A model generated the notes under the pieces. The model was not told the origin of the DNA. It did no database searches and worked only from the letters and a program-made list of their open reading frames with translations. From assembly GCA_028015205.1 (NCBI GenBank), contig JAPWFG010000015.1:2604001-2668000 (forward strand): a DNA stretch of 64,000 bases, read 5' to 3'. Shown piece after piece: positions 12,640-39,664 of this stretch (position 1 is its first letter; every line of letters begins with the position of its first letter). Origin of the DNA: Mytilisepta virgata. Taxonomy: Eukaryota; Mollusca; Bivalvia; Mytilida; Mytilidae. A program made the position numbers and the translations under genes.

Positions 12640-12836
12640 AGGCCAAAAAAAAATAAATACATGTGTTTCTGCTAACCCTAATTACCCTAATTTGTAGTGC
12701 CTACCCTAACACTTTTTATCCCATTTTGAAACAGCACTGTTAAAGTCAGACTGTTTCCCTTGTTGTAACCAACTAAAAACTGTTTGTAAAATAAAATAAT
12801 ATTGCCTACCTACCCTATTTGTTTTCAGCACATTAG
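12640..12836. mobile_element. Left part of an AGGCC-type MITE, split by the giant transposon
   Basis: It starts AGGCCAAAAAAAAATAAATA and runs through 'taccctaattaccctaat' and 'actgttaaagtcagactg', as in the intact copies at 42561-42788, 43520-43735 and 23340-23562. It stops at cagcaCATTAG, where the giant element begins. Its missing right end is at 39631-39664. Confidence 0.8.
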
Positions 12837-13571
12837 TATGGAACGCCATGACTGCCTTATGTTAATAATCAGCATTATATGCAGTGCTCACAGCATTATA
12901 TGCAGTGCTCACAACATTATATGCAGTGTTCACAACATTATATGCAGTGCTCACAACATTATATGCAGTGCTCACAACATTATACGCAGAGCTCACAACA
13001 TTATATGCAGTGATCACAACATTATATGCAGTGTTCACAGCATTATATGCAGCGGTCACAACTTTATATGCAGTGCTCACAACATTATATGCAGTGCTCA
13101 TAACATTATATGCAGTGCTCACAACATTATACGCAGAGCTCACAGCATTATATGCACTGGTCACAACATTATATGCAGTGTTCACAGCATTATATGCAGC
13201 GGTCACAACTTTATATGCAGTGTTCACAACATTATATGCAGCGGTCACAACTTTATATGCGGTGTTCCCAACATTATATGCAGTGCTCACACCATTATAT
13301 GCAGTTGTCGGAACATTATATGTAGTGGTCACAGCATTATATGCAGTGTTCACAACATTATATGCAGCGGTCACAACTTTATATGCAGTGTTCAAAACAT
13401 TATATTCAGCGTTCACAACATTATATGCAGTGCTCACAACATTATACGTTTTTTGTTGATGAAGGTGATGATCAGTGATGGTGATGATGATGATTGATGT
13501 TAGTGATGGTGGTGGTTCAGATTCGGTAAACTTCGGAAATTTCATCGGATACTTCCGGACCGAGGCCGGTC
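12837..13571 (+). repeat. Left terminal inverted repeat of the giant transposon
   Basis: Its order is a 34-bp unique tip, the 21-bp repeat array, then about 115 bp of unique sequence beginning cgttttttgttgatgaaggt and ending near CCGGTC at 13566-13571. It matches 38880-39630 inverted, with one mismatch in the first ~88 bp of the inner unique part. After CCGGTC the two sides diverge completely. Confidence 0.88.
12871..13449 (+). repeat. 21-bp tandem array inside the left TIR
   Basis: About 27 units of the type acattatatgcagtgctcac. Because 21 is a multiple of three and the unit lacks stops, long ORFs run through it on both strands; these are not genes. Rare variants (cagttgtcgg, gtgttcccaa) appear in the same order as in the right array. 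Confidence 0.93.
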
Positions 13572-13608
13572 TATATTTCATTAACGAGCACATGTTACAC
13601 CGGACAAA

Positions 13609-13861
13609 ATGGCTGATATTGATAATTCGAAGAGTATACAGGCGGTTCTTTTTGAACTTGGTCTTGGGACTATTTCCCAAAGATTTACTGAGCACAAAAT
13701 AACTTTTGATCTGGCAAAAAAATTATCAGATGAAGAACTGAGTGCTTTGGGTGTTGGGACAATAGGCGATCGGATACGCCTCAAAGAAAAACTTAACAAT
13801 CCAAACACAGAACCTGTGCCTGTGGCGCATTCAAGTCCTCAGGCTTCAGGTTCTACTTCAG
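13609..13861 (+). CDS. SAM-HECT exon 1 (SAM domain)
   Basis: The ATG at 13609 has A at -3 (acaaaATGG). The exon codes the whole SAM domain and a Pro/Ser linker, ending at donor G|GTAAAT (13862). Intron 1 is 4.7 kb. Confidence 0.87.
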
Positions 13862-16800
13862 GTAAATTCAAGATAAAATACGTAATAATGACGAAAACCC
13901 TATGTGTAGCCGTGAGACAGGGAGTATGAATTGGGAGAAAAACGTTGTGTAAATAGATTAGAGTCATTAGAGATGATTTATAATTGACAAAATTAATAAG
14001 TCTATACTTACTTTAGTCTCCCCCGAAACATATTATGTATGACATGTATATGTCTGTGGTTTCCCTGTACTAGGTGAACTATAAAACAAATACACAAAAA
14101 ATGCATTGGATAAGAATAATTTCTAGATGTGGTAGGAGTGCGGCAGCCAATGAGACAACACTCCAGCCAAGTCCGAGCATAGGCTTATCCATAGGGGAGG
14201 GGGGGGGGGCTTTTGTTGGGAAAAAAATTTGGTTGGTTATATAGGGAATCACTGAAGCATGACTGGAGCAGGCACCCCTTAGGTCAGTGGCCCCCTTCCC
14301 CCCCTTATGAAAAGTTCTGGATCCGCCACTGCCGAGGACAATGTACTTTTTAGCTCACCTGGCCATAGGCCATGTGAGCTATTGCCATCACTTGGCGTCC
14401 GTCGTCGTCTGTCATCGTCGTCGTCGTCGTCTGTAAACTTTTTCAAATGTTAACTCGTCCTAAACTACTGGACCGACTTCAACCTAACTTTGCAGAATTG
14501 TTCTTTAGGGCATCTGGAAAATTTCTATCGTTTAAAATTTTTGAAATGTCGAAAAACATGGCTGTCGTTACTATAAATAGAATTAAGGGGTAAATTGCTG
14601 TTTTTTGCTAATAACTCAAAAACCGTTACAGATATCGAAAATCTGACATGGGGTAAAATTGATCAGCATGACAAGATCTACCTACCCTGAAATTTTGAAG
14701 GAAATTCCAAAACCCATTTAGGAGTTATTGCCCTTTTTTCACATTTTTGGCTTTTTTTTTATGTTATTATTTCAAAAATCTTCTTCTCTGAAACTACTAT
14801 TCAAAATCATATGAAACTTGGTAAGATTGTTGCTTAGGGTACCCTGCATAGAACTGATGTGGGAATTTTTGATTCGTCGAAAAACATGGCCGCTGTTACT
14901 AAAAATAGAACATAGGGGTAAATTGCTGTTTTTTGCTAATAACTCAAAAACCGTTACAGATATCGAAAATCTGACGTGGGGTAAATTTGATCAGCATGAC
15001 AAGATCTACCTACCCTGAAATTTTGAAGGAAATTCCAAAACCCATTTAGGAGTTATTGTCCTTTTTTCGTCAAATTTTCATAATTTAACATTTTTCGTCA
15101 TTTATCTCCAAAACTATTTGAGATAGAAGTGAAATGTAAATTTGAAAAATGTTTGCCATGTTGAGATCTACATACCCTGAAATTTTAAAGGAAATGCCAA
15201 AACCCATTTAGGAGTTATTGCCCTTTTTTGTCAAATTTTTAAAATTTTAACATTTTTGCATTTATCTCCAAAACTATTTGAGATAGAAGTGAAATGTAAA
15301 TTGAAAAATGTTTGCCATGTTGAGATCTACCTACCCTGAAATTTTGAAGGGAATCCCAAATTCTATTTAGGAGTTATTGGTTTGTGTAATTTGAGGTCGG
15401 GTTCTGTTACATTTATTTAAGGTTCACCCTTATTCCTGGTCAATTTTGTCAACTTCCTGCCAGGACTACCACCATCAGGGAACATATTTTAACATTAAAC
15501 CTTATGAAAAATAAATCTTCAACAAATTTTCCCTGAACAATTGAACCAATTGCAACAAACTTGGTCAAATAGTTGATTAATTGTCCAATGAAAACCAGAC
15601 TCCAGGTGAGCGATACAGGCTCTGGTGAGCCTCTTGTTAAAGTTAACAATTAATTATAGGTCAAAGTATGGCCTTCAACACAGAGCATACCATATGATTT
15701 TTTTTTGACCTCTTGATAGATATATATCTATGGTTTCAGGAAAGGTATCACTGTAATTGATTGAAATTTTCGTTTGGACCAAATTTTGGAGACTTTTGTG
15801 ACATGTTCACCCCCCTTTTTTGCAATATTTTGTATCAAAGAAATGCAGATTGTTGCCATTGTTACACCAAAAAGAGATTATATTTCACCATTATAACCAT
15901 TAGAAATGGAATCTATGGAAGATTCTCATTCTATAAATATACACATGCATAACACAAATATTAAGCCTTATTTGTTAGAAAGGAAGGGAAAGAGGGTGTT
16001 GAAAAATTATGTGTGTCAGTTTGATTTTTTTTCCTAACTGTGTATTGTACTATGTCTCCATTTGTGGACAGTCATTCGTAAAATCATGATTGTCATTTCA
16101 TACCCATTCGAAGCCTTTGGTTGATTTGGAACCCCTTACTTCCCTTATTTTTGTTGGGTGAAACATAACCAAACATTTGGAAAAAAATGCTTGTTTGTCT
16201 TTATTAACTCGTGTCGGTCGTATTTTAAATTTCATCGAATAGCCCCGCGTATATCAACAAGAAATCTGTGAGGTTAATATGCTTACTTAACAACAAACGA
16301 GAATTTTCCATGTCTACTTTTTACAGACAAGTCACACATCAAATATATCAGTACATAGCTTTGGATCCATATTATCATTATATGATAGACAATTAATAGG
16401 GAGAATACAGCATAAAAAAAGTCCAACCCTTACACTTTACAGCAACTATAAAATATACATGCTCCACGTCAGGAACCGTTTAAAAAGTGCATTTTACACT
16501 TATTTAATGTTTTTTAGCCCAAAAAAGGTCACAAAAATTGTTCGCCCCACTCCGCTCCACAATCTTTAAAAAGTTCGCCCCCTCTTTCAAAAATCTTGGA
16601 TCCGCCCCTGCAAGTTTGGTCAAATCTCATAATTTTCACGGAGACTGTTTTCCGAAAATTATTTAGGCATTACAATGGACATAAGAATTTCCGGTTTACA
16701 CAAAATTTGTGAGGAAGCCCTAAAATTATAAAAAAAAAACAGTTATTTTGACAGGGTAAACAAAGCAAATAAATCCTCAGCCATTAGAGATATTCTATCA

Positions 16801-19800
16801 ATATGTAACAAAATATTGACAATGGGAAGAAAGTAATGCCAGTGTGTATCCCAAACTCTGTCTGACAGACAAATGTCAGCCAAAAAATCATTTGGTCAGA
16901 AAGTTTTTTGGATGACAATATTGAAGAAAAAAATCCAACTTTTTCTTTCGATCAGACAAACCCTTAAACAGTTTGGCACAGACTGAGTGCTAGGTTTTCT
17001 TGCATACAAATTTATATTTCAATGTACATACATGTACCTTTAGTCTGCCCTCTATCTTTGTGGCTTTATTAATCTGCGGAAAGACTTCCATATGGCACCC
17101 CCAATTGTGTATATCTTAGACATCAATAAGCATATAGATGTACTTATGGGGGTGCCAAATGGAAATCTTGCCTAGTCCGCTACAGACAAAGTCGAAGGGG
17201 ACTTTAGGTTTGCACTCTGTCTGTCTGTCTGTCCAGCTAATTAGTTTTCCACACTTTTTTCTTCTTCCTTGAAGATATTGTTTTGATCTTTGGTGTATTG
17301 ATATATCATAAGAAGTTACAGATCAATTCGAATTTTGTTCTGGACTGATGATTTTGATTTTTGTGCAGAATTATGGTCCTTAATTGTACTTAGAAGAGGG
17401 TGGTAAAGGGGGGTACTGAACACGGAAACATGTGAAATAATAATCGCAAAAACGTTGCACGAAAAATAAAAATAGAGAAAAACGAAGCACGAGAAATAAA
17501 ATTGTAAATATTAAGGAAAAAAGTACGTACCAGAAGTTATTACTCAGTCGTTCTTAGAGATCATTATGATTGTATGGGCTTTATCATGATTATGGGACTT
17601 TATTCATAAAAAAGGGAGGTTTTCAGTTTTGGACTATAGTTCAAATTTCTTTTAACTGTATTATTAACAACCGTGAATGTACATGTTTATGTAAGGGCTT
17701 ATTTTGGCCTAAAATTTGAAGTACTTCCGATGAAAGATTTTTTAAATCCTTAAGTGTCTACTTCATTTGATTCAAATAGTTATTGTAAAAACATCCCACA
17801 TTTACCATAAGGTTCATAAGGTATTGATCTATCTGCACATACATTGTAAAACAAATCAGACAACCCAAGATGGCTGACATAGCTAAAAATAGAACATAGG
17901 GGTAAAATGCAGTTTTTGGCTGATATCTCTGAAACTAAATCATTTAAAGCAAATCTGACAAGGTATACATGTTCATCAGGTTGAGATGTATCTAGCGTGT
18001 AATTTTTAGATGAATCAGACAACCTGTTGTTGGGTTGCTGCCCCTGAATTGGTAATTTTAAGGAAATTTGCAGTTGTGTGTTATTATCTTGAATATTGTT
18101 TATACAGATAGAGAAAACAGCAACAATGTCCAGCAAAGTAAGATCTACAAAAAATTCAATATAACCGAAATTGTCAATTGACCCCTTAATCCTTTCCTCA
18201 ATGGAAATTATATTTATGCATACTTGATTTGCATAGTTTTTTCAATAAAATGCTGAAAATATGCTTTAAAGTATTAATGCATTGCAAAAAACAAATATTT
18301 CATCAAATAAACTTTAGTCAGATATTCTTATGAATATTCTTTTCAAATTGGATACAAATTTTATTAAGTCTGATGCAGACATTTCATAGTCAAAGCGTTA
18401 CAACTGAGGTACTACACAGGCGCCAAAAGGCTTCATTATGGAGTAAAGGGGGTGGCGTCAAAAGGAGTCATTATGGAGGAAAGGGTTAAGGAATTATTGC
18501 CCTTAGAATTTTTGTATAATGTTAAATAATCTTCTCCTCTGAAACTACTTTGCCAATTTAATAACACCTGAACATTAACGCTATTTTGTCTTTACAGGCT
18601 CCACACCAAGAAGTCTTCTAGATAGAATCAGAAGGGAGCGTTCATTACTGTTTTCTTCTGGTTCTGGAAAAAGTAATTCACCCAAAAACCTGCCTAGAAA
18701 TCAGAAGAAAAGTAAGGGGAAAACATGGACGGGAACATTTATATGCTTGGCAGATAAATCCCAAGGACGGGTACCTTCAGTTTCTGAAAAAGAAGTTTTA
18801 ATTAGAGCCCAATTGGGTTCAAAAAGGATCCAGTTTTGTCTTGAAGACAAGGAAGAGGATGTTTTAGCTAAATTATCAGAAAATGAAACTGGGTTTCACC
18901 AGTTACAGGATATTGGAGGGTTTGAACTGTTAAGATGTAGACAAAATTGCAGACAGTTAGAAATCGTTGACTGTCCATGGACAGTCCGTGATCTGAAGGC
19001 CACGCTTGGAAGCCAAAGTAAAATATACCTAAGGCCTATACAAATAAACCTAAGTACACAGTCAACAGTTCAGACTACTCATATAGAAAAAAAGGAAGCT
19101 TGTAAAAGCTGTGGAGACAGCTTCAGTATACATGAACTAAGAAAACATATAAAACTGTGTCATGAAAAAGATCTTTCTAATGAGTCTGACTCAGAGCTAT
19201 ATGATCCACATATTACTGAAACAAATGTCAAAGAAACTGATGAAATCCACAGTGAAAAGATTCCAGACAATATCATGGAAAATATGGAACAAATTGAGTC
19301 ATCTAACAATAACAGTGGATCTTCTGTAAACAGCAACAATGAGACAATTATAGAAAGCATAATAGTGTCCTCGACATATCAAAGCGGTCTTGATGGAAAG
19401 GAAGGTAATGATGTTATTCCTGTTGATGGTGTCATTCTCCAATCTAGAGATGACAGTGTGTCAGATATCAATGTGGACCCTGTAGATAACTTGATGACAG
19501 ATGAATCAATTATTATAACACTTATTAACAATTGCCTTAACTACCTTATAGACAACAGTATTAATGACCCTGTAGACATCCTGCGCTATTTACAAAAGAA
19601 TATAGTAACTGGTAGGGAATTGGAAATTTCAAGTATAGAAACACCCACAGATGGAGACACAAATTTTATTTCTGTTGACAGGCACGAGTTAATTGAAACT
19701 GCCTTTGATGAAGTAGGAGCATTAACAGACTTACGTCCTACATTGGAGGTACAGTTTTACGGCGAGGTAGGTCATACAGTGTAGCTAAATTTGACCAGCG

Positions 19801-22800
19801 TTCTGTGTTCACATCAGTTCATGAATTTACATGTATGGTATTGATATCACATATATATACTTGGCAACTGTTGTTTGATTTCATCAGATATTTCTTGGAT
19901 TGGCATGAATAAAACTGATTTCTGATGAATGGTTTATAAAACAAATTTCAATTGAGCACCACCCAAGAAACAACCCTAACTAGTTTCTTTGTTTTACACA
20001 GTATCTGACGAGAACTAAAAAGGAGTCAGCTAATAAGAAGTAGTGGGTCTTTTTCTGTAAATTGGTTGGTTGCTTTCACTTTGCCACTACAGAGCTGTGG
20101 TAACATGTACATGTACATAGCTTTAATTTTTCTCTCATTTAGGAGCTATGAAACCAAGCTTCCTGATATAATATGTAGAACTATACTTCAATAGGCATAC
20201 ATTCTTTACCAGGTTATTGTGACAAGAAATCACATTTTTATAAAATGAAACCTATATAGTGAAGGTCACCTTCATGTTTGCTGCAACTTGTACTGTATAG
20301 TGGGTTATTTTCGAGGGGTGTAAATTTTTAGCTTATCTTCGCAGTTAGAAAAAAAAAGGCCAAAATAAATTCCACCAATTTAAAAGTGCACATGCAAATG
20401 TATTAATAAAAGGGTTGAATCTGCCAAAATAACCGCCAAAATATTCCGTATACCTTATTCAATGAAAATCTTGAAATTTCACACCAGCAAATATGACCCA
20501 CTATACGGTACTGAATTAATTTTGAATGAGATACTAATTATTTACATGTAGAAAGATCTTGTTTTTCAATTATAAAAACAAAAATAAATGTTATGTACCT
20601 TGATATTTATTAGTACTAATTTTCATATATAACTTTTCAAAACTTACATGTAATTACAGAATGCAGTTGACGGCGGTGGACCCAGGAAAGAATTTTTTCG
20701 GTTAATCCTTAGAGAAATTAAAGAGAAATATTTCGAGCCCATTAGACCATTTGCAAAAATGGAGGACTATGAAACCATAGGAAAGATTTTAGGTATGAAT
20801 TATCTCCCATGGAAACTTATCAACAATACAAGTTTTAGCTTTTTCAAAAGCTGTGGACTGCTTCGCTCTCTCCTAATTTAATGTAATATGTGTGCATGTG
20901 GTATTTTTAGATAGTTGATTGATATAAAATGGATTTACTTTAAGAGTGTGCATTATGAGTGTGCCTCTCTGGAGGTGTGCCTAGATTAGGAGAAGTTATA
21001 ATATACAGATAATGCTTTTTTGAAAACGTTGTATAGGAACATTGTTTAGCAAAACAAATCGTGCATATTGCAGATTGACAAAGCAAATAAACGTGTATTG
21101 ATAATTGATATTTCAATATTGAATTTCAGTGTGCAATATATATGCATAATAAAACGAACATGAATTAATGACAGTTGATTGGAACTGATATACACATAGT
21201 TAATTTTCCGGCTTATAACGACTTATTCTGAATGAGAAAAGTCTGTAATACTTTCTCATTTAAACCAATGGCTGTTGCTGATTCTCAGCCGCATCATAAA
21301 GTAACCAATCAGTGATCAGTAATAATTTCAAGATGGCGTGTATGTCTACTGAAACTAATAGCTCTGCACCGTGATGCGAAGCAATAAAATTGTCACTTAA
21401 CATGCTTAACGTATATTTTAATGTGAGTATGCTTTATTATATCCCTTGCAGCACTATTTTGACTACACTGGTCTTCTAATAGCAGTTGCTTAAAATTCAG
21501 CTTACCAGTTGAACAATTTGGTTTGCTTAAACAATTAATATTCAGTCACAATTTTGCACGAACTTCATTTTATTTTTATTTTGCATAAATCGTCATTTTA
21601 TTATGTGATATAAAGTAATAACAATTAAATTCTTAGAGCATCTCTTGTTACAACCATGCAGCTGTTTCCTTTATAGTTTTCTCAGTTAAGATACAGTTGT
21701 ATGTTCAAATTTAGTAACTTTAATAAATATATTCTTTTTTCAGCTCTTTCAATGTTACAGAATGGAAAGATACCCCAGTTTTTGGATTTTTCTCTTGTTA
21801 ATGAGCTGTTTGAAAGTAGCAGTCCAAGTTTGGTAGTTTTGAATTTAAGAAAAGGACTAGACAGTTTAGGACTTTACAAGGTACACATTATCTGCAAAAA
21901 GAAAACATAATTTTAAGAATTGTGATATGTGTACGCAGCCTACTGGTATATAGAAATTGTAAATATGAACAAGAATTTAAGTACTACTAATCCAAGTATT
22001 CAAATAAAAAGATTAACAATGTTTGACCTAATTACAATACATTAAAACATGAATGCACATTGTGCATGCATTATCAGTGTTTTTCTGTCACAAGTTTAAT
22101 ATTTTGTATTTTTTATGGAATAATATATATTTCTGATTCTCAGTCATTGTCATTTAAATAGCAAACAACTCACAACATAACATCTGGAAATATTCAGATG
22201 CTTAATATTATGTTTTTTTTAATGTTCCAACCTTAAACAAAATAACTGTTTAAACTTTCTTTGTTTAACATTTAAAAAAAATAAAATAAAGCAGCATGTA
22301 ATTTATAGATATTGAAAAGTGAATATCCGATTGTTAACATGAAAAAATTGGAGTAATTTAAGGATGTACTTAGGTGAGGTTTTGGAATTCGTGTCAAATG
22401 TTCGGACTCCTTGGAGTTTTTCCATACAATACAAGGTAAAATATTTTGATTTTTCGGCCCCATAACACCCATTTATTTTTTCATATAATACTTCATAGCT
22501 CATGTAAGGTCATTTGCCAAAATTTTACAAGATTCTTGATTTTCTTTCTTTTGTTTTCAGACCCAAATAATACCAATGCCTTTTTCCCGTCGTATTTTAA
22601 ATCTCAAATATCTCGAAAAGGAGGTCCATGACCTATCATTATTTTTAGCTTATTTTCATCCTTAACCATTGCTCTACTGGCTTATAGTATAAATTTTAAA
22701 TTCTTGATTTATTAATTTTCACCTAACCTCACCTATTAAAGTACATTATTATATTATTGTATGAATACTTTTCTCAGTAATCATGTCCATTCATGGTGTG

Positions 22801-25800
22801 AGTATTAATATAATATAATAGACTTTGCTAAATGGAAGATCATTAATGAAATAACTCAAAAACAAACTTTTATATATTTAATCTTACCAATGGGGATAAT
22901 GACCTGAGGAATGTAGCCTAGTTTAGCAACTGTTATTAACTTATTAATGATGGCAAGCATGGGATTCCAGTAAATTTTTTAACTGAGGATTAGCTCTTCC
23001 TACAATCTTGTACCTCTCTTTGCACATGAGATGTTTTCACTAGTTTTCTATTACAGATTGGAAGTTCACTTCCACAGTTTCGACACCTTTTCAATGCAAA
23101 ACAACCAGTTATGACTCTGAAAGGAGCAATTACCATGCTGAAACCAAAATTTAGTGAACCAGGCAGCAACAAGAGAAGTTTAGAAACTCGAGTTTATTCA
23201 GTGTTCACAAAATATCTTCGGGAAGTATCAAGTAAGAATAAAAAATATGCATGCAGATGTTATGACTTTTATAAGATTGAGTTAATCTTTACAACCATTT
23301 ACCACGCTGAGTTTTGAAAACTATCTCAGAGCTACACTCAGGTCCCCAAAAAATATGTGTTTCCACTAAAGTGCTGAAAAAATAGGATAGGAAATATCAT
23401 TTTATTTTGCAAACAATTTTTAGTGGGGTAAGTACTAGGAAATCAGTCTGACTTTAACACTGCTTGTTACAAAATGGCTTAAAAAGTGTTAGGATCATTT
23501 CTAAAAATTAGGGTTGGTAGGATTAAGGGAAACACATGCATTAATTATTTTGTTTAGCCCATTTGCATGACTAAATATTAATAAAGACTTTAATTTACAT
23601 GTATGAGGTAAATACACACTTCTTTCATTTCATACATTACATTGAATAGATGTAGTTAAACCTATGAAAATGTAATTGTTCAGATTTTTCATATGTTTGT
23701 CATTAAATATCAGGAAAATTTAAATAAATTAAACAAGTGTGGTCATATTATATTATTAGCCTGTCATCTATTAACATAAAACTTCCCTTGGCTGATTCCT
23801 CCTATATTTTTACACAATATTAATCAATGTCAAATTAAAGAATTTCTAAATTTGGGGTCCTGACCTTTCCTATTTAAAAACAAGAGGCTCTCAAGAGCCT
23901 GAATCGCTCACCTGGTAAACAGTGCACTATAAACTAAATTAATATATTAATGTTTGTTGTAAACTAAACTGAGTATTAAAGGTCACGTAAAATGCTGAAA
24001 ATACCTTTAAAAACCTTTAAGAACCTCTGGAAAGAAATGGGCATGAGTTCTCCCTACGCTTGATTAAGATACAGTCATGGTCAATCTGATGATTCATAAT
24101 ACAAAATACAAGCTTTAATTAATCTTCAAATACAAGTATAAATCTTTTGGTCTATATGTTGTCTTCGTTTTTAAAATGTTTGAAAGAAGTTATGTAAAAA
24201 TTGTGGGTTAAGGCTTTTTATTGTACTTGAAAAGGAAATATTGCAGGAACAATCATGCTAAGTTTCATCAAATTCCCCCAAGTAGTTTCAGAGGAGAAGA
24301 TGTTTGAAAATTTGTTAACAACGATTATGACAGACACCAAGTGATGGCAATTAAAAGCTCACATATTATGAAGTTTAATCATTGTTATACAACATTCTCA
24401 TCATCACCATTCACTAAGGATACCATGTTTACTTTAAAAACCAAATATTGTTGAAATCCGAGCAAGTGTAAAAAATGGCGGGAAAATGGCAGCCATTTTA
24501 AAAATGGCCGTCCAAAACAAACTTTCATCATCACCATTCAACTCGGGATACCATGTTTGCCTTGAAAGTAGCTTTCATCTTCATTTTATTTCTATAATTC
24601 AGGAAAGAATAGCAAAAAACAGCATTTTGACCCCTATGTTCTATTTTTAGTAAGGGCGGACATGTTTTTTGACCAATCAAAAATCCAAGCATTAACTTTT
24701 TGCAGAATTCCCTAAGGAACAATCTTACCAAGTTTCATTTGATTTTGAATAGTAGTTTTAGAGAAGAAGATTTTTGAAATAATAACATAAAAGAAAGCCA
24801 AAAATGTCAAAAAAGGGCAATAACTCTAACATCAGTTGACAGATTTTCACAAAAATCAGCACGCAGGTAGCTCTCATCATGCTGAACACTTTCAACCTGC
24901 AGAATTTGGCGTAACCTAATGATTTTTGTGATATTTGCGAAAAACTGTTGTTTGACCCCTATGTTCTATTTTTAGTAACAGTGGCCATGTTTTTCGATGG
25001 ATCAAAAATCGAAGCATAAACTTTGTGCAGGATACCCTAAGGAACAATCATGCTAAGTTTTATCCAAATCCATTCAGTAGTTTCAGAGGAGAAGATTTTT
25101 GAAATAATAACATAAAAAAAAGCCAAAAATGTCAAAAAAAAGGGTGATAACTCTGAAATGAGTGGTTGGATCTTCTTCAGAATTTCAGGGCAGGTAGATC
25201 TTGAGGTGCTGATCACTTTTACCCTATGCCAGAATTTTGATATCTGTGACCGTTTCTGACTTATTTGCAAAAAACTGCGATTTACCCCTATGTTCTATTT
25301 TTAGCCATGACGGCCATGTTTTTATACGAATCAAAAATCCAAACAATAGATTTGTAGCACCCATACCAATTAATAACTGTACCAAGTTTGGTTGCAGTTG
25401 GACTTATGGTGTTGGAGGAGTTAACGTTTGAAAAAGTTAACGGACGACGGACGGACGACGGACGCCAAGTGATAGCAATAGCTCACATGACCCTTCGGGT
25501 CAGGTGAGCTAAAAAGAGGTTGTTATATTTTGGCACAAGGTTTCTATGCACAAAATATAGACAAAGGTTAATTTTGGAGGGTTCCTGGTCCCACCCATTA
25601 GAGATTTCTAGAATTGATGAAAATTAAAGCATTCAACATGGTCAGTTGTGAAAGAAAAAGGCCAAAAAAGGAGAGACTGTTGGTCCAATTTAAATCTTAA
25701 ATATATAAGAAGATGTGGTATGAGTGCCATTGAGATAACTCTCCATCAAGTCACAATTTGTAAAAGTAAAACCATTACAGGTCAAGGTACGGTCTTCAAC

Positions 25801-26828
25801 ACGTAGCCTTGGCTCAGACCGAACAGTAAGCTATAAAGGCCCCCAAAAATGACATGTTCGAGGGGTACCAATCTGCTCTATCACCCTCTCAGCTATGTGT
25901 TATTTAATTTTTTATACTGAATGTCCCATCATTATTGTTATTTACAGATGAATATTATTTTAAAGTATTTTCCATGACGTCATGTTCATAACAACGTTAG
26001 GGGTAGCAGAAAAATCATCAGAAGCGAAGCAAGATGTTTTATTTTTTTATTATTTTGACAATCAAATAATAGAATCTGATCCAAAACGTAGAAAGTAAGC
26101 ATTGTCTTTATTATTTGATGTAAATTCAATTCATTGTCCTTCAAATTATCGATTTTTGATTGGCCTGGACGAGAGGGTGATCGACATTCAAAAAAAATTG
26201 TCAACCGCTCAGCCATGTGATAGAGTTAATTAACACCCTCGTATTAGCCAATCAAAATATGGCATTTTAACGTGAAGTATAATAATACAAAATATCAGTT
26301 GAAATGGCTTAACTCAATCAAAAGACATATTAACACAAGTGAACTGTTACACTGAATGAACAAAATTGTATGCATGCCTATTAAATGGACCTTAATTTAT
26401 TGTATATACCTTGAAGATTTTAAGAAGATTATGATATTTTTTGTATATTTCTGACTATTTATTATTATTGCTATCACGTGTCACAGTCCTTTCGTAAAAT
26501 GAGAAACCGAAAATTTTGTTTGACTTATATTTTAGTCTTATGGAATGTCATTCTTATTTCAGGTGGAAGAAGAGAAAATATATCGCTGCATAGTATTTTA
26601 ATGTTTGCAACTGGAGCTGATGAAGAACCAATTCTTGGATTTGCAGTAGGCCCAGAGATCTGTTTTTCTGAGAGTGAAACATATAATTCTTTTCTGCCTA
26701 CTTCAAACACCTGCATAAATAGACTTACTTTACCAATTCCATCAGCAGAGAAGGATTTACCAACAAATGAAGTCTTATTCCACTTGTATGACTTAGCCTT
26801 TGCCAATACTTATTATGGATTAAGTTGA
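13609..26828 (+). CDS. SAM - C2HC finger - HECT E3 ubiquitin ligase (transposon gene)
   Basis: Six exons: 13609-13861, 18598-19766, 20660-20792, 21744-21880, 23057-23231 and 26563-26828. All splice sites are GT/AG and phases agree, giving 710 aa plus TGA. Residues ~8-65 form a SAM domain (LFELGLGTISQRF, LGVGTIGDRIRLKEKL). Residues 253-272 are C-x2-C-x11-H-x3-C, the UBZ4/RAD18-like ubiquitin-binding pattern. An acidic spacer follows. From ~434 to the end is a HECT domain: N-lobe VDGGGPRKEFFRL and LPQFRHLF, C-lobe FLPTSNTCINRLTLP with the candidate catalytic Cys673 (26712-26714). Known HECT role: ubiquitin transfer through a Cys thioester. Related genes are often named G2E3-like. It starts 38 bp inside the left TIR and converges on the integrase gene, so I read it as a transposon gene, not a host gene. 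Confidence 0.88.
14350..15637 (+). repeat. Hairpin-family element, complete copy
   Basis: The head AGCTCACCTGGCC...GGCCATGTGAGCT folds into a hairpin; the tail is AGGTGAGCGATACAGGCTC...GAGCCTCTTG. Its body repeats blocks such as 'ctaccctgaaattttgaagg' and 'aggagttattg'. It has no coding potential. Confidence 0.75.
17078..17170. repeat. Short palindrome around 'tggcaccccc'
   Basis: 'aagacttccatatggcaccccc' type sequence at the left is mirrored by 'gggggtgccaaatggaaatctt' at the right around a 45-bp centre. It could be a tiny MITE or a foldback. Confidence 0.55.
17860..18560 (+). repeat. Body of the hairpin family, headless, with a nested MITE
   Basis: 'aaaaatagaacataggggta', 'gttgggttgctgcccctgaa' and 'aaagtaagatctacaaa' match the copies at 29767-31577 and 62443-63500. 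Positions 18190-18485 are a later insertion. Confidence 0.7.
18190..18485. mobile_element. TTAA-duplicating MITE nested in a repeat
   Basis: The ends TCCTTTCCTC and the complement of CCCTTTCCTCC form inverted repeats. TTAA flanks both sides (18186-18189 and 18486-18489), and the host repeat resumes after it ('ttgacccc' | 'ggaattattgccctt'). A TTAA duplication is typical of piggyBac- and Kolobok-mobilised elements. Confidence 0.72.
18598..19766 (+). CDS. SAM-HECT exon 2 (central region and C2HC finger)
   Basis: The acceptor TTTACAG ends at 18597 and the donor GTAGGT starts at 19767. It codes SLLDRIRRERSLLF, a conserved-looking block with FICLADKSQGRVPS and GGFELLRCRQNCR, the finger CKSCGDSF...HIKLC, the acidic spacer and the first HECT residues (DRHELIETAFDEVG). 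Confidence 0.88.
20293..20508. mobile_element. TA-flanked MITE
   Basis: Inverted ends CTGTATAGTGGGTTATTTTC and CCGTATAGTGGGTCATATTT are preceded and followed by TA (20291-20292 and 20509-20510). This fits a Tc1/mariner-type mobilised MITE of 216 bp, in SAM-HECT intron 2. Confidence 0.72.
20660..20792 (+). CDS. SAM-HECT exon 3 (HECT N-lobe)
   Basis: The acceptor ATTACAG ends at 20659 and the donor GTATGA starts at 20793. The join gives FYGENAVDGGGPRKEFFRLI, the hallmark HECT D-G-G-x-x-x-E-F motif. Confidence 0.88.
20793..21743. other. SAM-HECT intron 3: nothing recognised
   Basis: AT-rich sequence without a clear repeat boundary, exon or RNA gene. Confidence 0.5.
21744..21880 (+). CDS. SAM-HECT exon 4 (HECT)
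   Basis: The acceptor TTTTCAG ends at 21743 and the donor GTACAC starts at 21881. It codes ALSMLQNGKIPQFLDFSLVN and the following LFESSSPSLVVLNLRKGLDS, characteristic of the G2E3-like HECT subgroup. Confidence 0.87.
21881..23056. other. SAM-HECT intron 4: nothing recognised
   Basis: AT-rich. I could not delimit any element; a stretch around 22360-22740 has repeat-like wording ('cacctaacctcac') but no visible ends. Confidence 0.45.
23057..23231 (+). CDS. SAM-HECT exon 5 (HECT)
   Basis: The acceptor ATTACAG ends at 23056 and the donor GTAAGA starts at 23232. It codes IGSSLPQFRHLFNAKQPVMT through TRVYSVFTKYLREVS, the end of the HECT N-lobe. Confidence 0.85.
23340..23562 (-). mobile_element. 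AGGCC-type MITE, intact but diverged copy
   Basis: The ends ccccaaaaaatatgtgtttc and gggaaacacatgcatt are inverted. The interior contains 'ccactaaagtgctgaaaaaa', the same site that the giant transposon hit in its sister copy. It is the best reference here for the empty target. Confidence 0.65.
23881..25513 (-). repeat. Hairpin-family element, complete copy, minus orientation
   Basis: It begins CAAGAGGCTCTCAAGAGCC (tail hairpin) and ends GACCCTTCGGGTCAGGTGAG-CTAAAAA (head hairpin). The body repeats 'cctatgttctatttttag' several times. Confidence 0.75.
25697..25860 (+). repeat. Fragment of a common mussel repeat
   Basis: 'agatgtggtatgagtgcc' followed by 'gataactctccatc', 'ggtcaaggtacggtcttcaa' and 'ctataaaggcccc' matches, inverted, the segment at 32760-32950. 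Confidence 0.6.
26563..26828 (+). CDS. SAM-HECT exon 6 (HECT C-lobe, stop)
   Basis: The acceptor ATTTCAG ends at 26562. It codes SGRRENISLHSILMFATGAD, then FLPTSNTCINRLTLPIPS with the Cys codon at 26712-26714, ending AFANTYYGLS and TGA at 26826-26828. Confidence 0.9.
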
Positions 26829-27345: not shown

Positions 27346-27365
27346 ATTTTTTTTTAAGGGCTTAT

Positions 27366-29766: not shown

Positions 29767-31577
29767 TTTTTAGCTCACCTGACCCAAAGGGTCAAGTGAG
29801 CTTTTCTCATCACTTGTCGTCCGTCGTCCGTCGTCCGTTAACTTTTACAAAAATCTTCTCCTCTGAAACTACTGGGTCAAATTGAACCAAACTTGGCCAC
29901 AAGCATCATTAGGGTATCTAGTTTAAAAAATGTGTCCGATGACCCCGCCTGCCAACCAACATGGCCGACATGGCTAAAAATAGAACATAGGGGTAAACTG
30001 CAGTTTTTGTCTTATATCTCAAAAACTAAAGCAATTAGGGCAAAACTGACATGGGGTAAAAATGTTCATCAGGTCAAGATCTACCTGTCATGAAATTTTC
30101 AGACAAATCGGTCAACCCTTTGTTGGGTTATTGCCCCTGAATTGTTAATTTTTAGGACATTTTGCAGTTTTAGGTTATTATCTTGAATATTATTATAGAT
30201 AAAGACAAATTGTAAACAGCAAAAATGTTCAACAAAGTAAGATCTACAAATAAGTCAACATGACCAAAATCATTGATTGACCCCTTATAGGAGTTTTTCC
30301 CCTTTAAAGACGGCATCCAGCATAAACTTTCCTTTAAAGATCTTTTCCTCTCAAACCACTGGGCTAATTGAGACCAAACTTTGGTGGAATGGTCCTTGGG
30401 TGGCCCCCTTCCAAAATTATATCTGGCATCCCCGACTTCCAACCGAGATGGCTGCTGTTACTAAAAATAGAAAAAAAAGGGGGGTGACTTTCTAAAATCT
30501 TCTTATATGAAACTACAAGTCCAGTTGGAACCAAAGTTGGCAGTAATAGTTCTTAGGAGGTTCTCTTTCAGAAATATGTCCAATGACCCGGACTGTTAAC
30601 CAAGATGGCCGCCACAGCCGAACTTAGTTTAACATAGGGCCCTATGGGAAAATTCATTGAAAATCTTCTCGTCTGAAACCACTTGACCAATTGGAACCAG
30701 ACTTAGCAGCAATGGTCCTTAGATGGTCCTCTTACAGAGGTGTGTCTGATGACCCGGACTGTCAACCAAGATGGCCGCCACACCCGAACTTAGTTTAACA
30801 TAGAGCCCAATAGGAAAATTCATTGAAAAATCTTCTTGTCTGAAACCACTTGACATATTGGAGCAGGACTTGGCGGCATTGGTCCTTAGGAGGTCCTTTT
30901 TCAGAAATGTGTCTGATTTCGTGGACTGTGAACCAAGATGGCTGCCACAGCAGAACTTAGTTTAACATAGGACCCTATGGGAAATTCACTCAAAAAACTT
31001 CTCGTCTGAAACCACTAAGCCAGTTAGAATTAGACTTGGCAGCAATGGTCTTTAGATGGTCCTCTTTCAGAAGTTTGTGCGATGACCCAGACTGTCAACC
31101 AAGATGGCCACCACACCCAAACTTAGTTTAACATAGGGCCCTATGGAAAAATTCATTGAAAAATCTTCTTGTCTGAAATCACTTGAAATATTGGAGCCAG
31201 ACTTGGCAGCATTGGTCCTTAGGAGGTCCTCTTTCAGAAATATGTCCGATCACCCGGATTGTCAACCAAGATGGCTGCCACACCGAACTTTGTTAAATAT
31301 TGGACCCTATAGGAAAATTCATTTAAAAATCTTCCTGTCTGAAACCGCTTAGCCAGTTGGAACAAGACTTAGCAGAAATGGTCCTTAGATGGTTCTCTTT
31401 TAGAAATGTATCCGTTGACCTGGACTAAACCAAGATGACTGCCACAGCTGAAATTAGTTTAACATAGAATCCTGTAAAAAAAACAAGCCAAATTGACTGC
31501 AACACTTAAATTTTTAGGTCTGCTCAAGGTTAAAAGTTAAATCCAGGTGAGCGATACAGGCTCTTGAGAGCCTCTAG
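29767..31577 (+). repeat. Hairpin-family element with ~170-bp internal tandem units
   Basis: Head AGCTCACCTGACCC...GGGTCAAGTGAGCT; tail AGGTGAGCGATACAGGCTC ending CTCTAG. From 30490 to 31490 about six diverged units recur, each with 'accaagatggccgcca', 'ttagtttaacatag' and 'tctgaaaccact'. Confidence 0.75.
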
Positions 31578-33208: not shown

Positions 33209-34090
33209 TTATAGTTCATGAAATGAATGAATAATGTCAAGTGCTGTCAAGAAAACATCCATTCCATAAGCAGTCGATGTCCATCCTGAAGGACACTGTT
33301 CTTGTAATTCAGTTTTGCACTCATGAGAGGGTGTGAATGTCAGACTATGATAAATTGGTCTTGGATTTTCTTCATCAAAAAGAACTCCTTCTACTCCATA
33401 AAATTCTTCATCTTCAACGGCTAGGTCATTCTGTGTTCCTATTGGGTTATTCATTTGTCCAGCTAACCACAAGCGAATAGGAGATGATTTTGCAGTGCGC
33501 AATCTATGGCGTGCCCATGCTTCCCTCCAGATACACAGTTTTTCATTTATTTTTGGCATAAATACATGATGCAGTGAATACATATGAATTTCATCCAGAG
33601 GGTCTAACAACCCTTCATCTTCCATGAAGTAAAATAACACATAATAGTATGCGAGAACACCATCAAAGACATCACGCCATAGTCTCTCTATGCGTTGGTT
33701 GTGTACACTTTTTCCAACAATCATGCTTCCACGGTTTGCTCCGCGCCTTTCAATCATAAAATCGGCAACTTTACTATTTTCCATACCTTTATCAGACCTC
33801 ACTCTGAGGGGAAGCCCAAATTCATTTACTCCTTCAAGAAAACAACTTGCAACGGTTTCTGCTTTGTTGTTATCAATACATTTTAAAAAAGTGATAAATC
33901 TGCTAAAGCCATCAATTCCTCCAGCTATGATAAAATTCCACCGGACAAGTTTGTGATTGGTGTCTATGTGCCAAAGGTGATTAACACCCTGCACATTGTA
34001 AACTCTTCTTTTCAGCCTTCCTGCACGCCTGTCTTGTATTCCATTGTCATCAACATGATGTAGAATTTCCCGAAGTCTTGATCTTTGTAC
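33209..34090 (-). CDS. Integrase exon with the DDE core
   Basis: The acceptor TTTTTTACAG ends at 34091. The core is followed by an acidic C-terminal tail ([20 protein letters not shown]), ending SFHEL and stop. Confidence 0.9.
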
Positions 34091-34854
34091 CTGTAAAAAA
34101 GAACTAGCATAAATAACACTAATTCACATTGTAAAACCAATGTTAGTGAGCTACCATTGAATTTTTCTTTTTTTTGGGGGGGGGGGGGGGGTTGCTAGGG
34201 TTAAAAATTTTGTGCTGCATTTTTTTTTTTTGTAATGTCTGTGCAGCATTTTAATATTTCACTCTATTCGGTCCTGCATTTTTTAGGTTTATTCTCAATT
34301 TTTTCATAAATTGACATCCTGTCTTTTTTTGGGCAACATGTTCCATCCTGCCTGTATTTTACTTAAAACTCCTCTCCAGCCTATTTTTTTCAAATTTCAT
34401 CACATTACTACAATGTGTTCGTTATATGGAAGAATGTGTACTAGATTGATCTGTCTGGTGGTTTTTCGAAATATAAGTGGCCAAAGGGGGGGGGGGGAAT
34501 AATATGCAAATGAAATAAGAAAGAAGATCAGAGGAAACAGGAAGAAAGATAACTTTTAAGTAAACTTAACTGAATAATGATCTCATTTACCTTTACATTT
34601 TTTTGAACCAGAATTTGTCTTAGTAAGGTTTCTCCACAAAAAGGGAACTCTGTAACTACATTTGTAATTAAGTCTTCTAATGCGCCATCTTCAATGTCTG
34701 TAAAATACTCTTTTTTCAATCCATATTCGTCCATCCTTCTATATATTGTTCTTTCGGATACTGATAACAGGTTAGCTATGTCGGAAATGAGAAATCCATC
34801 CTCCAAGAGGTTGTTCAAAATTTCCTTTGGGATAATGAACTTCGGTGCACCTGC
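33209..34854 (-). CDS. DD34E integrase/transposase with N-terminal helix-turn-helix
   Basis: Two exons: 34854 (or 34850) to 34591, and 34090-33209 with the stop at its end. The junction KNVK|VQRSR is in phase 0. The first exon has [13 protein letters not shown] and the helix-turn-helix [19 protein letters not shown]. The second has a basic stretch, then the integrase core: D in LWHIDTNHK (33964-33962), D in [10 protein letters not shown] (33793-33791) and E in [13 protein letters not shown] (33688-33686), spacing D-x56-D-x34-E, the DD35E-like spacing of retroviral and IS3-type integrases. The family is the animal 'integrase core domain' group seen in fish, corals and molluscs. No stop or frameshift interrupts it. 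The first exon lacks its own ATG, so an upstream exon is needed; the SAM exon at 38835-38632 fits. Likely the element's transposase, acting in the nucleus on the TIRs. Confidence 0.87.
34091..34590. other. Integrase intron with two G runs
   Basis: 500-bp intron, donor GTAAATG at 34590. G homopolymers (about 16 and 12) lie near 34175 and 34484 in a T-rich context; no element could be delimited. Confidence 0.6.
34591..34854 (-). CDS. Integrase exon with the helix-turn-helix
   Basis: Two tandem acceptors are possible behind a run of T: AAG ending at 34855 (phase 0, adds AG before APKF) and CAG ending at 34851 (phase 1). Both keep the frame open. The donor is GTAAATG at 34590. Confidence 0.82.
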
Positions 34855-35098: not shown

Positions 35099-35157
35099 AG
35101 TCTCCCAAAGTTTAAGTTTGGAGACTTATTGTTTTTGTTGCGTTTCTTGTTCTTCTT

Positions 35158-35188
<31 letters not shown>

Positions 35189-36322: not shown

Positions 36323-36478
36323 TAACACTGTTACAATTATTACTTGTTCATCTTAAAATTCATTCAATTCCATAGACTTTTCAGACTGATAATTTCGGAA
36401 GCCGATGATAATTAACGGAGGCCTAATGTCCAGCGGCAAATTAATATGCATATTGAGGACAAGAACTTAACAGTTTAA

Positions 36479-37059
36479 GGGCATACGATACTGTTACAGT
36501 TTAGGTAATTACGTTGCTAACGTAAATTGTTATTTTCGCGACGTCAAACTATGACTTATCGGGAAAAGATTCAGTTTTCCACTGATTTTTATCATTCAAA
36601 CTTATCTAACTTCAAAACGAGTTCATTGACCCCGCTGTTTTAAGGCCATTTGGTTTGATTACGGAAGAAGATTATGTGTGCCAATTTTCATGAAAATGTA
36701 AATAGTGTATTTTTTTAAAAATTTGATAAATATGCAGCAAAATTGACGGTTTTTTTTACTACTTTCGTGAACATTTGATGAGTTATTTGAAAAGAAATTG
36801 CACGTACACATTTAAATGACATTTATAATATAAAACAGAATTTACAAATAATTTAACAACAAACACAAACAGCTTGTGTTTATCTTTTAAAACGAAAAAG
36901 TTATGTATTTCTGTCGAAAAGAAAAATACGTCCACAAATCCAAATTATGAGTAAATATATAAAATTTGGACCTCATTTTACTAAAAAAAAGTAGCACATG
37001 AAGGTATATTTTTTATTACATATTTGATTTAATCAGGGAAAAAACTGTATCGTATGCCC
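36479..37059. mobile_element. TTAA-duplicating element, 581 bp
   Basis: The ends GGGCATACGATAC and GTATCGTATGCCC are perfect inverted repeats of 13 bp, extended imperfectly. TTAA flanks both sides (36475-36478 and 37060-37063). No ORF is present, so it is non-autonomous. Confidence 0.8.
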
Positions 37060-37084
37060 TTAATGGTAAATGAATATTAACCCT

Positions 37085-37295
37085 GTTTTGTACTAGACCG
37101 CAGTCAGACATGTCACCTTACCCAGACACATTAAACTGACTCTGAGCAGACATTCAGTCTTAATGCCGTTTGCATGCTTAGGGGAGAATCCAGAAATACC
37201 TTTTTTAGGTCTTCAGTTTGACCCAGCAGGGTTCTAACCCATGACTTCCTGCACTCCATGTGAACACGGTACCTGCGGTAGTTACAGAAGGAGGA
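37085..37295 (-). mobile_element. SINE with tRNA-like head
   Basis: On the minus strand a B-box-like GGGTTAGAACCC is followed by the tail domain with 'taatgtgtctgggta' and 'ggtgacatgtctgactgcgg', shared with the SINE at 46196-46440. Confidence 0.6.
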
Positions 37296-38631
37296 CGCCT
37301 ATCCTCCAAAATTTATTCAAGTCAAATATATATGAGTTGGATGTATTAATTTCTCATATAAAAATTACTATACACCAAGGGTTTGTTTTACAGTCTAATT
37401 GCATCGTAATTGTGTATGCAAATTCTATTTGGGCCCTTAATTGGTAATAAAAATATATATCTTATCTTCCAATACAACAGAAATGCCAAAGTATATTTTT
37501 TGAAATGGGAAATCTTCTCGAGGTGACATTACACATTACAAAACAATCTAAGTGTATGTCTTGTCATTGAAGTGGGCCGTAACAACATAGTATCCTCAGT
37601 GACTTTTCATGCTTTAAGCTGGATCATAAACATAAAATTAACCAGAATAGTTAATGCGTAAAAAAGTCGGTCCCAATGACCTACTTTGTTTCAAGGTCTT
37701 TTGTTACTGTTCAATTTGCGGGTCACAGTTTACATGCAGGACACACACAACAGATAGAATCAATAGGGGAAAAGCCACTGTTCCCGAAACAAGAAAAATT
37801 AACACCATCACTGAGAACGTGTATCAAATAAACTGACAATAGTGCTGCCTCCTGGCTCAAGTAACCCTACTATCTCTTTATATCTATTAAATATGAGACT
37901 TGTCATCAGTCTACTCATACCAAATCGAATTAAAATCGAGTCACGAAAAATGCACTAATCACTAATCACGGATAACAAATCCATGAAAAAAAAACTTAAC
38001 GAATCACAGACAACAAATTCATGGAAAGAAGTCATGGAAAACAAAATTCAACGACCACAAAGAAAGAAAATATCCCATCATTCCCCTCAAAGTAGCATTC
38101 CTCTATATATATGACATGTACTGCTGTACTTGCTTATAGATTCCGTATCTTATGCAAAGCTTAACGGACTGAGGCAATTCTGCATAAAATGTAGGTCGAG
38201 ATGACCCGCTTTTATTGGACCATTGTTACTATCCAAGATGTGCACATGAACAGTAACAGAACATCTTTCATCTTTAATTCAATTCGCAGTTAATTTATAT
38301 ATAGACCTTGACGCAAAACTTGACCGTGACGGATGGACGGATGAACGAACGGACGGAGGAAATGCTACATTCATTTCAAAACTCCGATTGTCGAAGAGAT
38401 GATAATTAAAGGGGACGACTAGTCTATTTGATGTCTGTGATATTCTAAGGGATTTGTTTTCGGATTGATTGTTTGTTTTCCTCTGCTGCTACACATGCTT
38501 ATTAATTTATGTTTTACCGCTATTGTACTGTGTAAAATTGTTCATTTTTAAAATTCTCCTGATATTTGATGTTTGATGTAATCTATGGTTACATATATCA
38601 TTATTATTGATTGTTTGTTTTTTTTACTCAC

Positions 38632-38835
38632 TTTATTCCTTGTGTATTTCTCTGGACGAACAGTGCCATAACTAATGCACGCAATTCTTAGTTTCATCAT
38701 TTCATCTGAATGAACAACCCCTAAATTATAAAAATCATGTCTGTCCAATTTGCAGATAATATCCGGTGTAATTTTTTCTCTTGTAAACGTTTCCGATAAA
38801 TTGCCTAAATTACAGGACTTCAGTAACTGTTCCAT
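38632..38835 (-). CDS. SAM-domain first exon next to the right TIR
   Basis: The ATG at 38835 starts a 68-codon exon ending at donor GTGAGT (38631). The protein (LLKSCNLGNLSETF, EKITPDIICKLDRHDFYNLGV) is a SAM domain, recognisably related to, but clearly diverged from, the one in the SAM-HECT gene (EKITPD... versus HKITFD...). It starts 45 bp inside the right terminal repeat. No HECT exons lie downstream. The next exons on this strand are the integrase ones, in matching phase, so a SAM-integrase protein of 449 aa is the simplest model. The fusion is inference; the SAM exon itself is well supported. Confidence 0.75.
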
Positions 38836-38879
38836 TTGAAATTTTGGTGGTGCATTATCAATTTTTGTCTTATATTTTT

Positions 38880-39630
38880 GACCGGATTCGGCAATGTCCG
38901 ATAAAATTTCCGATGTTTACCGAATCTGAACCACCACCATCACTAACATCAATCATCATCATCACCATCACTGATCATCACCTTCATCGACAAAAAACGT
39001 ATAATGTTGTGAGCACTGCATATAATGTTGTGAGCACTGCATATAATGTTGTGAACACTTCATATAATGTTGTGAACACTGCATATAATGTTTTGAACAC
39101 TGCATATAAAGTTGTGACCGCTGCATATAATGTTGTGACCACTACATATAATGTTCCGACAACTGCATATAATGGTGTGAGCACTGCATATAATGTTGGG
39201 AACACCGCATATAATGTTGTGAACACTGCATATAAAGTTGTGACCGTTGCATATAATGCTGTGAACACTGCATATAATGTTGTGACCAGTGCATATAATG
39301 CTGTGAGCTCTGCGTATAATGTTGTGAGCACTGCATATAATGTTATGAGCACTGCATATAATGTTGTGAGCACTGCATATAAAGTTGTGACCGCTGCATA
39401 TAATGCTGTGAACACTGCATATAATGTTGTGATCACTGCATATAATGCTGTGAGCTCTGCGTATAATGTTGTGAGCACTGCATATAATGTTGTGAGCACT
39501 GCATATAATGTTGTGAACACTGCATATAATGTTGTGAGCACTGCATATAATGTTGTGAGCACTGCATATAATGCTGTGAGCACTGCATATAATGCTGATT
39601 ATTAACATAAGGCAGTCATGGCGTTCCATA
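38880..39630 (-). repeat. Right terminal inverted repeat of the giant transposon
   Basis: Inverted match to 12837-13571: tip GGCAGTCATGGCGTTCCATA at the outer end, a 21-bp array, then the same unique inner part ending at GACCGG (38880). Array unit number differs slightly from the left copy. Confidence 0.88.
38999..39596 (-). repeat. 21-bp tandem array inside the right TIR
   Basis: About 28 units of ataatgttgtgagcactgcat. Reading through it gives STAYNVV-like peptides in open frames on both strands, an artefact of unit length. Confidence 0.93.
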
Positions 39631-39664
39631 CATTAGTGGAAAAACATGTATTATTTTTTTGCCT
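39631..39664. mobile_element. Right remnant of the MITE split by the giant transposon
   Basis: CATTAGtggaaaaacatgtattatttttttgcc continues the MITE exactly where 12640-12836 stops; the two parts, sharing CATTAG, make a 225-bp unit. Confidence 0.78.

Follow-up and report, generated by a model that had tools for sequence, protein, structure and literature searches.

Eukaryotic DNA transposons are mostly thought to need one transposase together with host factors. A stretch of 64,000 nucleotides from Mytilisepta virgata (contig JAPWFG010000015.1; hereafter the window) raises the question of whether a transposon may also carry a ubiquitin ligase, and what such an enzyme would do for it. The data presented below lead us to hold, with good confidence, that a 26.8-kb element in the window is a two-gene transposon of the IS3EU/GingerRoot kind, whose integrase would cut and join the ends and whose SAM-HECT ligase likely serves the element.

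Specifically, the complete two-gene element spans positions 12837-39630 (26,794 bp), with tips reading TATGG..CCATA and the duplication CATTAG on both outer sides. The exact inverted tips and their CATTAG flanks had been recognised in an earlier note on this DNA, as had inverted repeats of ~740 bp, a figure close to the two lengths measured. The ends are organised as follows:

12831..12836, no strand: left target-site duplication CATTAG, adjoining TATGGAACGCC, which starts at 12837
12837..13557, plus strand: left terminal inverted repeat, 721 nt, tip TATGGAACGCCATGACTGCC
12873..13446, plus strand: left array of 21-bp iterons, about 27 copies
39000..39594, minus strand: right array of 21-bp iterons, about 28 copies
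38889..39630, minus strand: right terminal inverted repeat, about 743 nt, tip TATGGAACGCCATGACTGCC on the minus strand
39631..39636, no strand: right target-site duplication CATTAG, adjoining the reverse complement of TATGGAACGCC, which ends at 39630

The two arms are near-identical except for one stretch of gained or lost 21-bp units, and these iterons are possible binding sites of the transposase. When the whole window was scanned, the 11-nt tip of the element occurred once per strand. In the 1.03-Gb genome, the 20-nt tip was found 53 times on each strand, against no occurrence of the same tip read backwards; therefore, the tip is not a product of chance.

A second copy (on C6) holds both genes between the same ends and is flanked by a different 6-bp duplication, CTTGTC; its coding sequences differ from those of the window at 4 of 2133 nt (SAM-HECT) and 3 of 1350 nt (integrase). 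In addition, a near-copy of the insertion site containing a single CATTAG lies unoccupied in the same assembly, at C3:42460064-42460264, and the joined flanks of the element match this uninterrupted sequence with 94% identity over 1,040 columns. The second copy and the unoccupied site bear out the earlier proposal of one mobile unit. A 25.6-kb sequence nested inside the second copy was first read as another transposon, a reading that was rejected; the parts of it that were read show a period of ~1.5 kb.

The earlier note had suggested checking that each pair of tips encloses both genes and has its own 6-bp duplication, and had counted gene-less repeats without duplications against a transposon. 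The second copy does both, while 35 short tip pairs are gene-less; gene-less copies do exist, but 26 of the 35 are flanked by an exact 6-bp duplication, six by one with a single mismatch and three by no match. These short copies are internal-deletion derivatives of the element.

As the earlier note had described, the two genes run inward with intact motifs. The transposase gene, on the minus strand, has three exons and encodes an intact 449-aa SAM-HTH-integrase:

38632..38835, minus strand: exon 1, SAM domain; alone only a weak SAM_1 match (E 0.13)
34591..34854, minus strand: exon 2, helix-turn-helix, several weak HTH matches
33209..34090, minus strand: exon 3, integrase core, PF24764 above cut-off
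33962-33964, 33791-33793 and 33686-33688, minus strand: DDE residues D199, D256 and E291, with 34 residues between D256 and E291

No zinc-binding integrase model was among the best 25 of 34 families matched by this protein. The transposase family profile matches the SAM of tankyrase-1 and also that found in the HECT proteins; SAM domains are common, and this second comparison had no control set of unrelated SAM families.

The SAM-HECT gene, on the plus strand, is composed of six exons with GT/AG borders in an intact 710-aa frame:

13609..13861, plus strand: exon 1, SAM domain, SAM_2 above the Pfam cut-off
18598..19766, plus strand: exon 2, middle region with a Cys/His motif
20660..20792, plus strand: exon 3
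21744..21880, plus strand: exon 4
23057..23231, plus strand: exon 5
26563..26828, plus strand: exon 6, HECT C-lobe, PF00632 above cut-off

The predicted catalytic residue is Cys673 (codon 26712-26714). When 44 proteins were aligned, 26 of the 27 with a letter in this column had a Cys. The HECT match above cut-off, Cys673 and a fold match obtained for a close relative indicate that the protein is likely a ubiquitin ligase. It is 93% identical, over 99% of its length, to LOC134684725 of M. trossulus.

The ends and the duplication fit the IS3EU/GingerRoot superfamily, an assignment made by ends, duplication and integrase core. In the part of PMC10045372 available to us, this superfamily is described with TA..TA termini and a 6-bp target duplication. 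The element has both, since its tips read TATGG..CCATA and 6 bp are duplicated here (CATTAG), in other elements (CTTGTC; AGTTGC) and, exactly, in 26 of 35 derivatives; a further shared feature is a DDE core of integrase type that lacks the HHCC zinc motif. What the earlier note gave for IS3EU, a 6-bp duplication and 5'-TA ends, agrees with the available text of PMC10045372 and PMC12730594. HECT and ubiquitin do not occur in PMC10045372, and its available part has no mention of SAM domains on both proteins, which the element has. In rust fungi, according to the accessible sections of PMC12730594, TET-carrying IS3EU elements have TAYGG..CCRTA ends, matched by those of our element, 6-bp duplications and a second enzyme gene, for an alpha-kinase, opposite the transposase; their hosts, however, are fungi, the enzymes they carry beside the transposase are a kinase and a TET dioxygenase, and the paper nowhere names HECT or ubiquitin. 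Styx of Zymoseptoria, as far as the excerpt of PMC10853768 goes, is IS3EU-related, was searched for with a duplication length of 6 and occurs also as single inverted repeats, but its consensus is 7,927 bp, compared to 26.8 kb here, and its four frames encode transposase, GATA, CCHC and DUF3577 proteins. Our search, Repbase being outside its scope, found no published description of a HECT ligase in an IS3EU-type transposon.

Polinton/Maverick and Ginger1/2 also have an integrase-related transposase. Polinton, moreover, carries a polymerase and virus-like genes; in the seven of the element's 21 stop-to-stop frames of at least 90 aa that were scanned with Pfam, shorter exons lying outside the scan, no protein-primed polymerase or virus-like match was found. 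Duplication lengths given in the available part of PMC10045372 are 6 bp for Polinton, a likeness to our element, 4 bp for Ginger1 and 4-5 bp for Ginger2, in contrast to the 6 bp seen in the window, in the C6 copy and in a second-family element on C11.

Among the 53 integrase-core loci of the whole genome, 23 have a HECT match within 30 kb, and in all 23 the two genes are convergent, compared to at most 3 in 1,000 shuffles. Viewed from the ligase side, 23 of 33 HECT groups face an integrase of this family no more than 30 kb away, the other 10 being without a listed integrase. The linked integrases are 37-98% identical to that of the window, and 17 of the 23 have no stop in the matched stretch. 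The remaining six have stops, one of them 15, and so has one of four second-family ligases; several linked copies are therefore worn. No HECT match within 30 kb was found at 30 of the 53 loci, 11 of them at 50% identity or more and two of them stop-free 459-aa frames (C14:56879917 and C8:24365138); either part of the wider family does without the ligase, or the ligase escaped detection at such loci, 63 of 259 HECT candidates having been scored.

The diverged second family is represented by a 14-kb element on C11. Its tips are similar, its flanks carry a duplication of their own, AGTTGC, and the same two genes again converge. Its integrase is 50% identical to that of the window; for its ligase, identity is 31% across residues 10-474 and 45-61% within the exons of the HECT domain. 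This family and the 23 convergent loci argue that the transposon lineage acquired the ligase long ago. The earlier note had assigned the ligase to the element's own machinery: the recurrent pairing, also in a diverged family, supports this, and from matches to the same two genes standing face to face at 23 places we infer that the ligase is probably of use to the transposon and not a passenger by chance.

How would it do so? We predict that the SAM-HTH-integrase cuts at the TA ends and joins them to a 6-bp staggered target, while the HTH, and perhaps the iterons too, would hold it on the ends. The related N-terminal SAM domains of both proteins may recruit the ligase to its partner transposase or to the transpososome, a contact to which we give an even chance. 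The ligase could then ubiquitinate the transposase or end-bound proteins, so that the joined complex would be dismantled and the transposase dose limited. A parallel is offered by Mu and other transposons whose complexes are remodelled by helper proteins, such as ClpX acting on MuA: the proposed role, disassembly of a tight transposase-DNA complex, is alike, but there the remodeller comes from the host, while the ligase would be encoded by the element. As the main substrate, the transposase is a plausible candidate, somewhat short of an even prospect; a host silencing or repair factor is a tentative one, and anything else is unlikely.

Some viral ligases mark host silencing or repair factors for degradation, and the HECT protein might do the same, allowing the element to escape repression. 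The recurrence of the gene pair in a selfish element suits this explanation, as does the escape from silencing proposed for the fungal IS3EU TET dioxygenases (PMC12730594, available part), but the related SAM domains of the two element proteins point first to each other, and we consider it rather unlikely.

A further explanation concerns the gene-less derivatives. The P element has a KP product that represses transposition, and the SAM exon of the derivatives might likewise yield a SAM-only peptide blocking SAM contacts. A full-length SAM exon is kept in 28 of the 35 derivatives, twice in one; of the resulting 29 exons 19 are intact, and in some the frame stays open for about 100 residues. Against this, clear purifying selection was not seen among the variants of this exon (14 synonymous and 27 non-synonymous, compared to 23%:77% expected), and the exon adjoins the right end, so it may be kept merely with that end. 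Repression by such a peptide is quite improbable.

Transposons capture host genes, and the ligase could be a captured gene riding along without a role. The 30 loci without a nearby HECT match and the stops in several linked copies are in keeping with this, but the single orientation of all 23 pairs across integrases so diverged and mostly stop-free, the divergence between the ligases of the two families and the catalytic Cys kept in all but one of the proteins reaching it make it highly improbable. That host sequence came to lie by chance between inverted repeats, as two long spliced genes and the many other repeats in the window might suggest, is refuted by the second copy with its other duplication and by the unoccupied site, unless the assembly is wrong twice, and is vanishingly improbable.

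Returning to the transposon-serving ligase, we tentatively picture an ancient animal transposon lineage with its own ligase, in which the two proteins would meet through their SAM domains, the transpososome would be dismantled or dosed, and SAM-only gene-less copies would act as built-in competitors. A conserved element-encoded ubiquitin ligase would link transposition to protein turnover, and the release of a eukaryotic transpososome could then be tested directly in a system with known ends and only two known proteins. In addition, transposon carriage may explain why annotation lists several SAM-HECT copies in some bivalves, given the 23 of 33 HECT groups linked here.

Beyond this genome, searches with the integrase and HECT alignments found no relatives among viral contigs and one match among prokaryote contigs, a distant integrase on a sponge-associated contig, where linkage is not readable because the contig is only 3.7 kb long. 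Matches in VIA-align covered mostly the HECT and the integrase core, and barely the SAM, the HTH and the middle region. No further Solemya transposase was among the 120 protein matches listed. Within the M. virgata genome, a third-family tip, TATGGAACGCCGTAGCTGCC, was seen in L082 and L083.

All the structural features that the earlier note claimed for the window, namely CATTAG on both sides, exact inverted tips, inverted arms and two inward-facing genes, are present in its sequence. The features are as follows (C11 is another contig of the assembly).

12837-39630, 26,794 bp: complete element, target-site duplication CATTAG abutting either tip on the outside
Within it, + strand: SAM-HECT gene, six exons bounded by GT and AG, 710 residues
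Within it, - strand: transposase gene, three exons, 449 residues
C11:24661603-24675622, 14,020 bp: second-family element, tips TATGGAACGCGACAGCTGTC, AGTTGC on both sides

The tips of the window element are exact inverted copies, TATGGAACGCCATGACTGCC, and its inverted arms (0.72 kb and 0.74 kb) align near-identically save for gains and losses of 21-bp units, of which each arm holds an array of 27-28. Between the arms lie the two convergent genes. Arrays of tandem units, about 150-166 bp long and partly alike, were observed in non-coding sequence of the element as well as in the right flank (15002-15379, 30494-31467, 58187-58907 and 61355-61886), and are probably other repeats making up part of the 26.8 kb. 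A 66-bp repeat forms two arrays outside the element, at 47275-47953 (about 10 copies) and 49299-51400 (about 32), with 95% matches.

The SAM-HECT protein begins with a SAM domain, continues with a middle part that contains a Cys/His motif and carries Cys673 in its HECT domain; its closest relative, from Mytilus trossulus, shows 93% identity over 99%. In the transposase, a SAM-like domain and a helix-turn-helix are combined with a PF24764 integrase core whose triad is D199, D256 and E291; it is closest to a Mytilus galloprovincialis protein (98.7% identity across the last 381 residues). These relatives suggest that the host is a mussel. The first Asp and the Glu of the triad are each conserved in 55 of 56 aligned transposase relatives, and the second Asp in all 56. 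Both proteins have relatives in other bivalves and in corals; those of the ligase extend to a hemichordate. The nearest annotated transposase relative, M. galloprovincialis LOC143051900, is probably an inactive copy, because Ala replaces the first catalytic Asp.

When the two flanks were joined via one CATTAG, the full 204-nt query matched contig C3 (C3:42460064-42460264) at 96%. The surroundings are 94% identical over 1,040 columns, with one CATTAG and without the insert, and we regard this site as a near-copy of the unoccupied site, either a duplicate or a misplaced allele. Among the 40 places scored out of 672 candidates, 39 extend past the junction, and the remaining one is the window itself. 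In addition, a second copy lies in opposite orientation on contig C6 (C6:3512847-3565307), flanked on both sides by CTTGTC. Both ends, 6/6 HECT exons and 3/3 integrase exons were read there, with C6:3521847-3543799 and 3546701-3552288 outside the reading. The coding differences from the window amount to 4/2133 bases in HECT and 3/1350 in the integrase (two amino-acid changes and none, respectively), without stops. Among the matches listed, 98% identical cores (query residues 149-449) were confined to the window and C6 places. The extra length of the C6 copy is accounted for by about 25.6 kb inside the first integrase intron. Because of the C3 near-copy with its single CATTAG and the C6 copy with its own CTTGTC duplication, we conclude that the element moved as a unit, as the earlier note had proposed.

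The C6 insert (C6:3518669-3544302, loci L050 and L072; 25.6 kb) has a period of about 1.5 kb in the parts read, which end near a GAA-rich microsatellite also present in the window copy.

Ligase-integrase linkage was assessed across the genome. From 95 integrase matches listed, the 54 reaching the core were counted, giving 53 loci after merging; excluded were 33 SAM-exon-only matches and 8 others (exon 2 of the two counted copies, one row that overlaps, two fragments next to counted loci and three on contig C14). Of 76 HECT matches listed, 19 were excluded because they fall inside genes already included, and the remaining 57 gave 33 groups after merging. A HECT group lies at most 30 kb away from 23/53 integrase loci, in convergent orientation in 23/23, and 23/33 HECT groups are so linked; since only the best 94 of 597 integrase and 63 of 259 HECT candidates were scored, these counts are lower bounds. 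By comparison, when HECT positions were shuffled 1,000 times within their contigs, with one common length assigned to small contigs, 0.26 were linked on average and never more than 3. Linkage is found for 19/30 integrases at least 50% identical to that of the window and for 4/23 below 50%. No stop interrupts the matched stretch in 17/23 linked integrases, and one, 37% identical, is a wreck with 15 stops.

Between arms of 95% identity over 585 columns, the second-family element on C11 carries both genes, again in convergent order. Its transposase, 50% identical to the window's, is one open frame of 454 residues; its ligase, with 560 residues in an open stretch, is 31% identical to the window's over residues 10-474 and 45-61% in later exons. 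The tip occurs eight times in the genome, pairing two more elements (19.8 and 24.7 kb) and leaving two single tips. Both pairs enclose HECT matches, that in the 19.8-kb pair with a stop within the matched stretch. The uniform convergence of the linked pairs and this second family with both genes uphold the earlier view of the ligase as part of the element, and we conclude that the ligase belongs to the transposon lineage. Two integrase frames of 459 aa, both stop-free and 51% identical (C14:56879917-56881227 and C8:24365138-24366448), have no HECT match within 30 kb and possibly represent a lineage without the ligase.

As for known relatives, PMC10045372 gives TA..TA ends and 6-bp duplications as common to IS3EU and GingerRoot, in agreement with the IS3EU traits named in the earlier note. 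PMC12730594 describes a TET-carrying IS3EU of rust fungi with ends TAYGG..CCRTA and an alpha-kinase opposite the transposase, and PMC10853768 the IS3EU-related Styx, with four frames within 7.9 kb, for which its authors propose a two-protein ancestor. Within the titles and opening abstracts of the open literature listed, no HECT or ubiquitin ligase was described in such transposons; among open papers, IS3EU together with HECT gave no match. The element may already be named in Repbase or in closed journals.

In the mechanism we propose, the integrase-type transposase would join the element ends across a 6-bp stagger, which fits the TA ends and 6-bp duplications of such elements. The ligase would be brought to the transposase via the SAM domains and could ubiquitinate it or its neighbours, so that the dose is limited or the complex released. 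SAM domains commonly form pairs or polymers and, since related ones begin both proteins, such recruitment is the simplest reading. The main rival is that the ligase acts on a host target.

The window tip was counted 106 times in the genome, 53 per strand (reversed control, 0), and of the 100 places sorted, 25 are single tips and the others form 37 pairs, one of which includes a third tip. All 35 short pairs among the tip places listed, 2.0-6.3 kb in length, were taken as derivatives. The idea that paired tips carry their own 6-bp duplication stood in 26/35 with an exact match (6/35 had one mismatch, 3/35 did not match), while the enclosure of both genes failed in all 35. Specifically, outside the SAM part no derivative matches HECT at E 0.001, none matches the integrase past residue 97, and none retains at least 200 bp from inside the HECT-side end. 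All 35 contain sequence from inside the integrase-side end. In many (among those listed, to locus L028), an inverted repeat of the integrase-side end comes after that end. At positions chosen after inspection, the target is weakly symmetric in the 26 exact cases: 16 have A at the third base before it and 17 have T at the third base after it; their inner target bases are A or T in 87/104. The full-length SAM exon is retained in 28/35 derivatives, twice in one, and 19/29 exons are intact; their 14 synonymous and 27 non-synonymous variants give no clear sign of selection. At positions 5021-5498 of another locus, L048 (C6:34273771-34279289), a single first-family tip abuts SAM-HTH fragments from a different transposase (51% and 40% identical), an arrangement resembling the insertion of one element into another.
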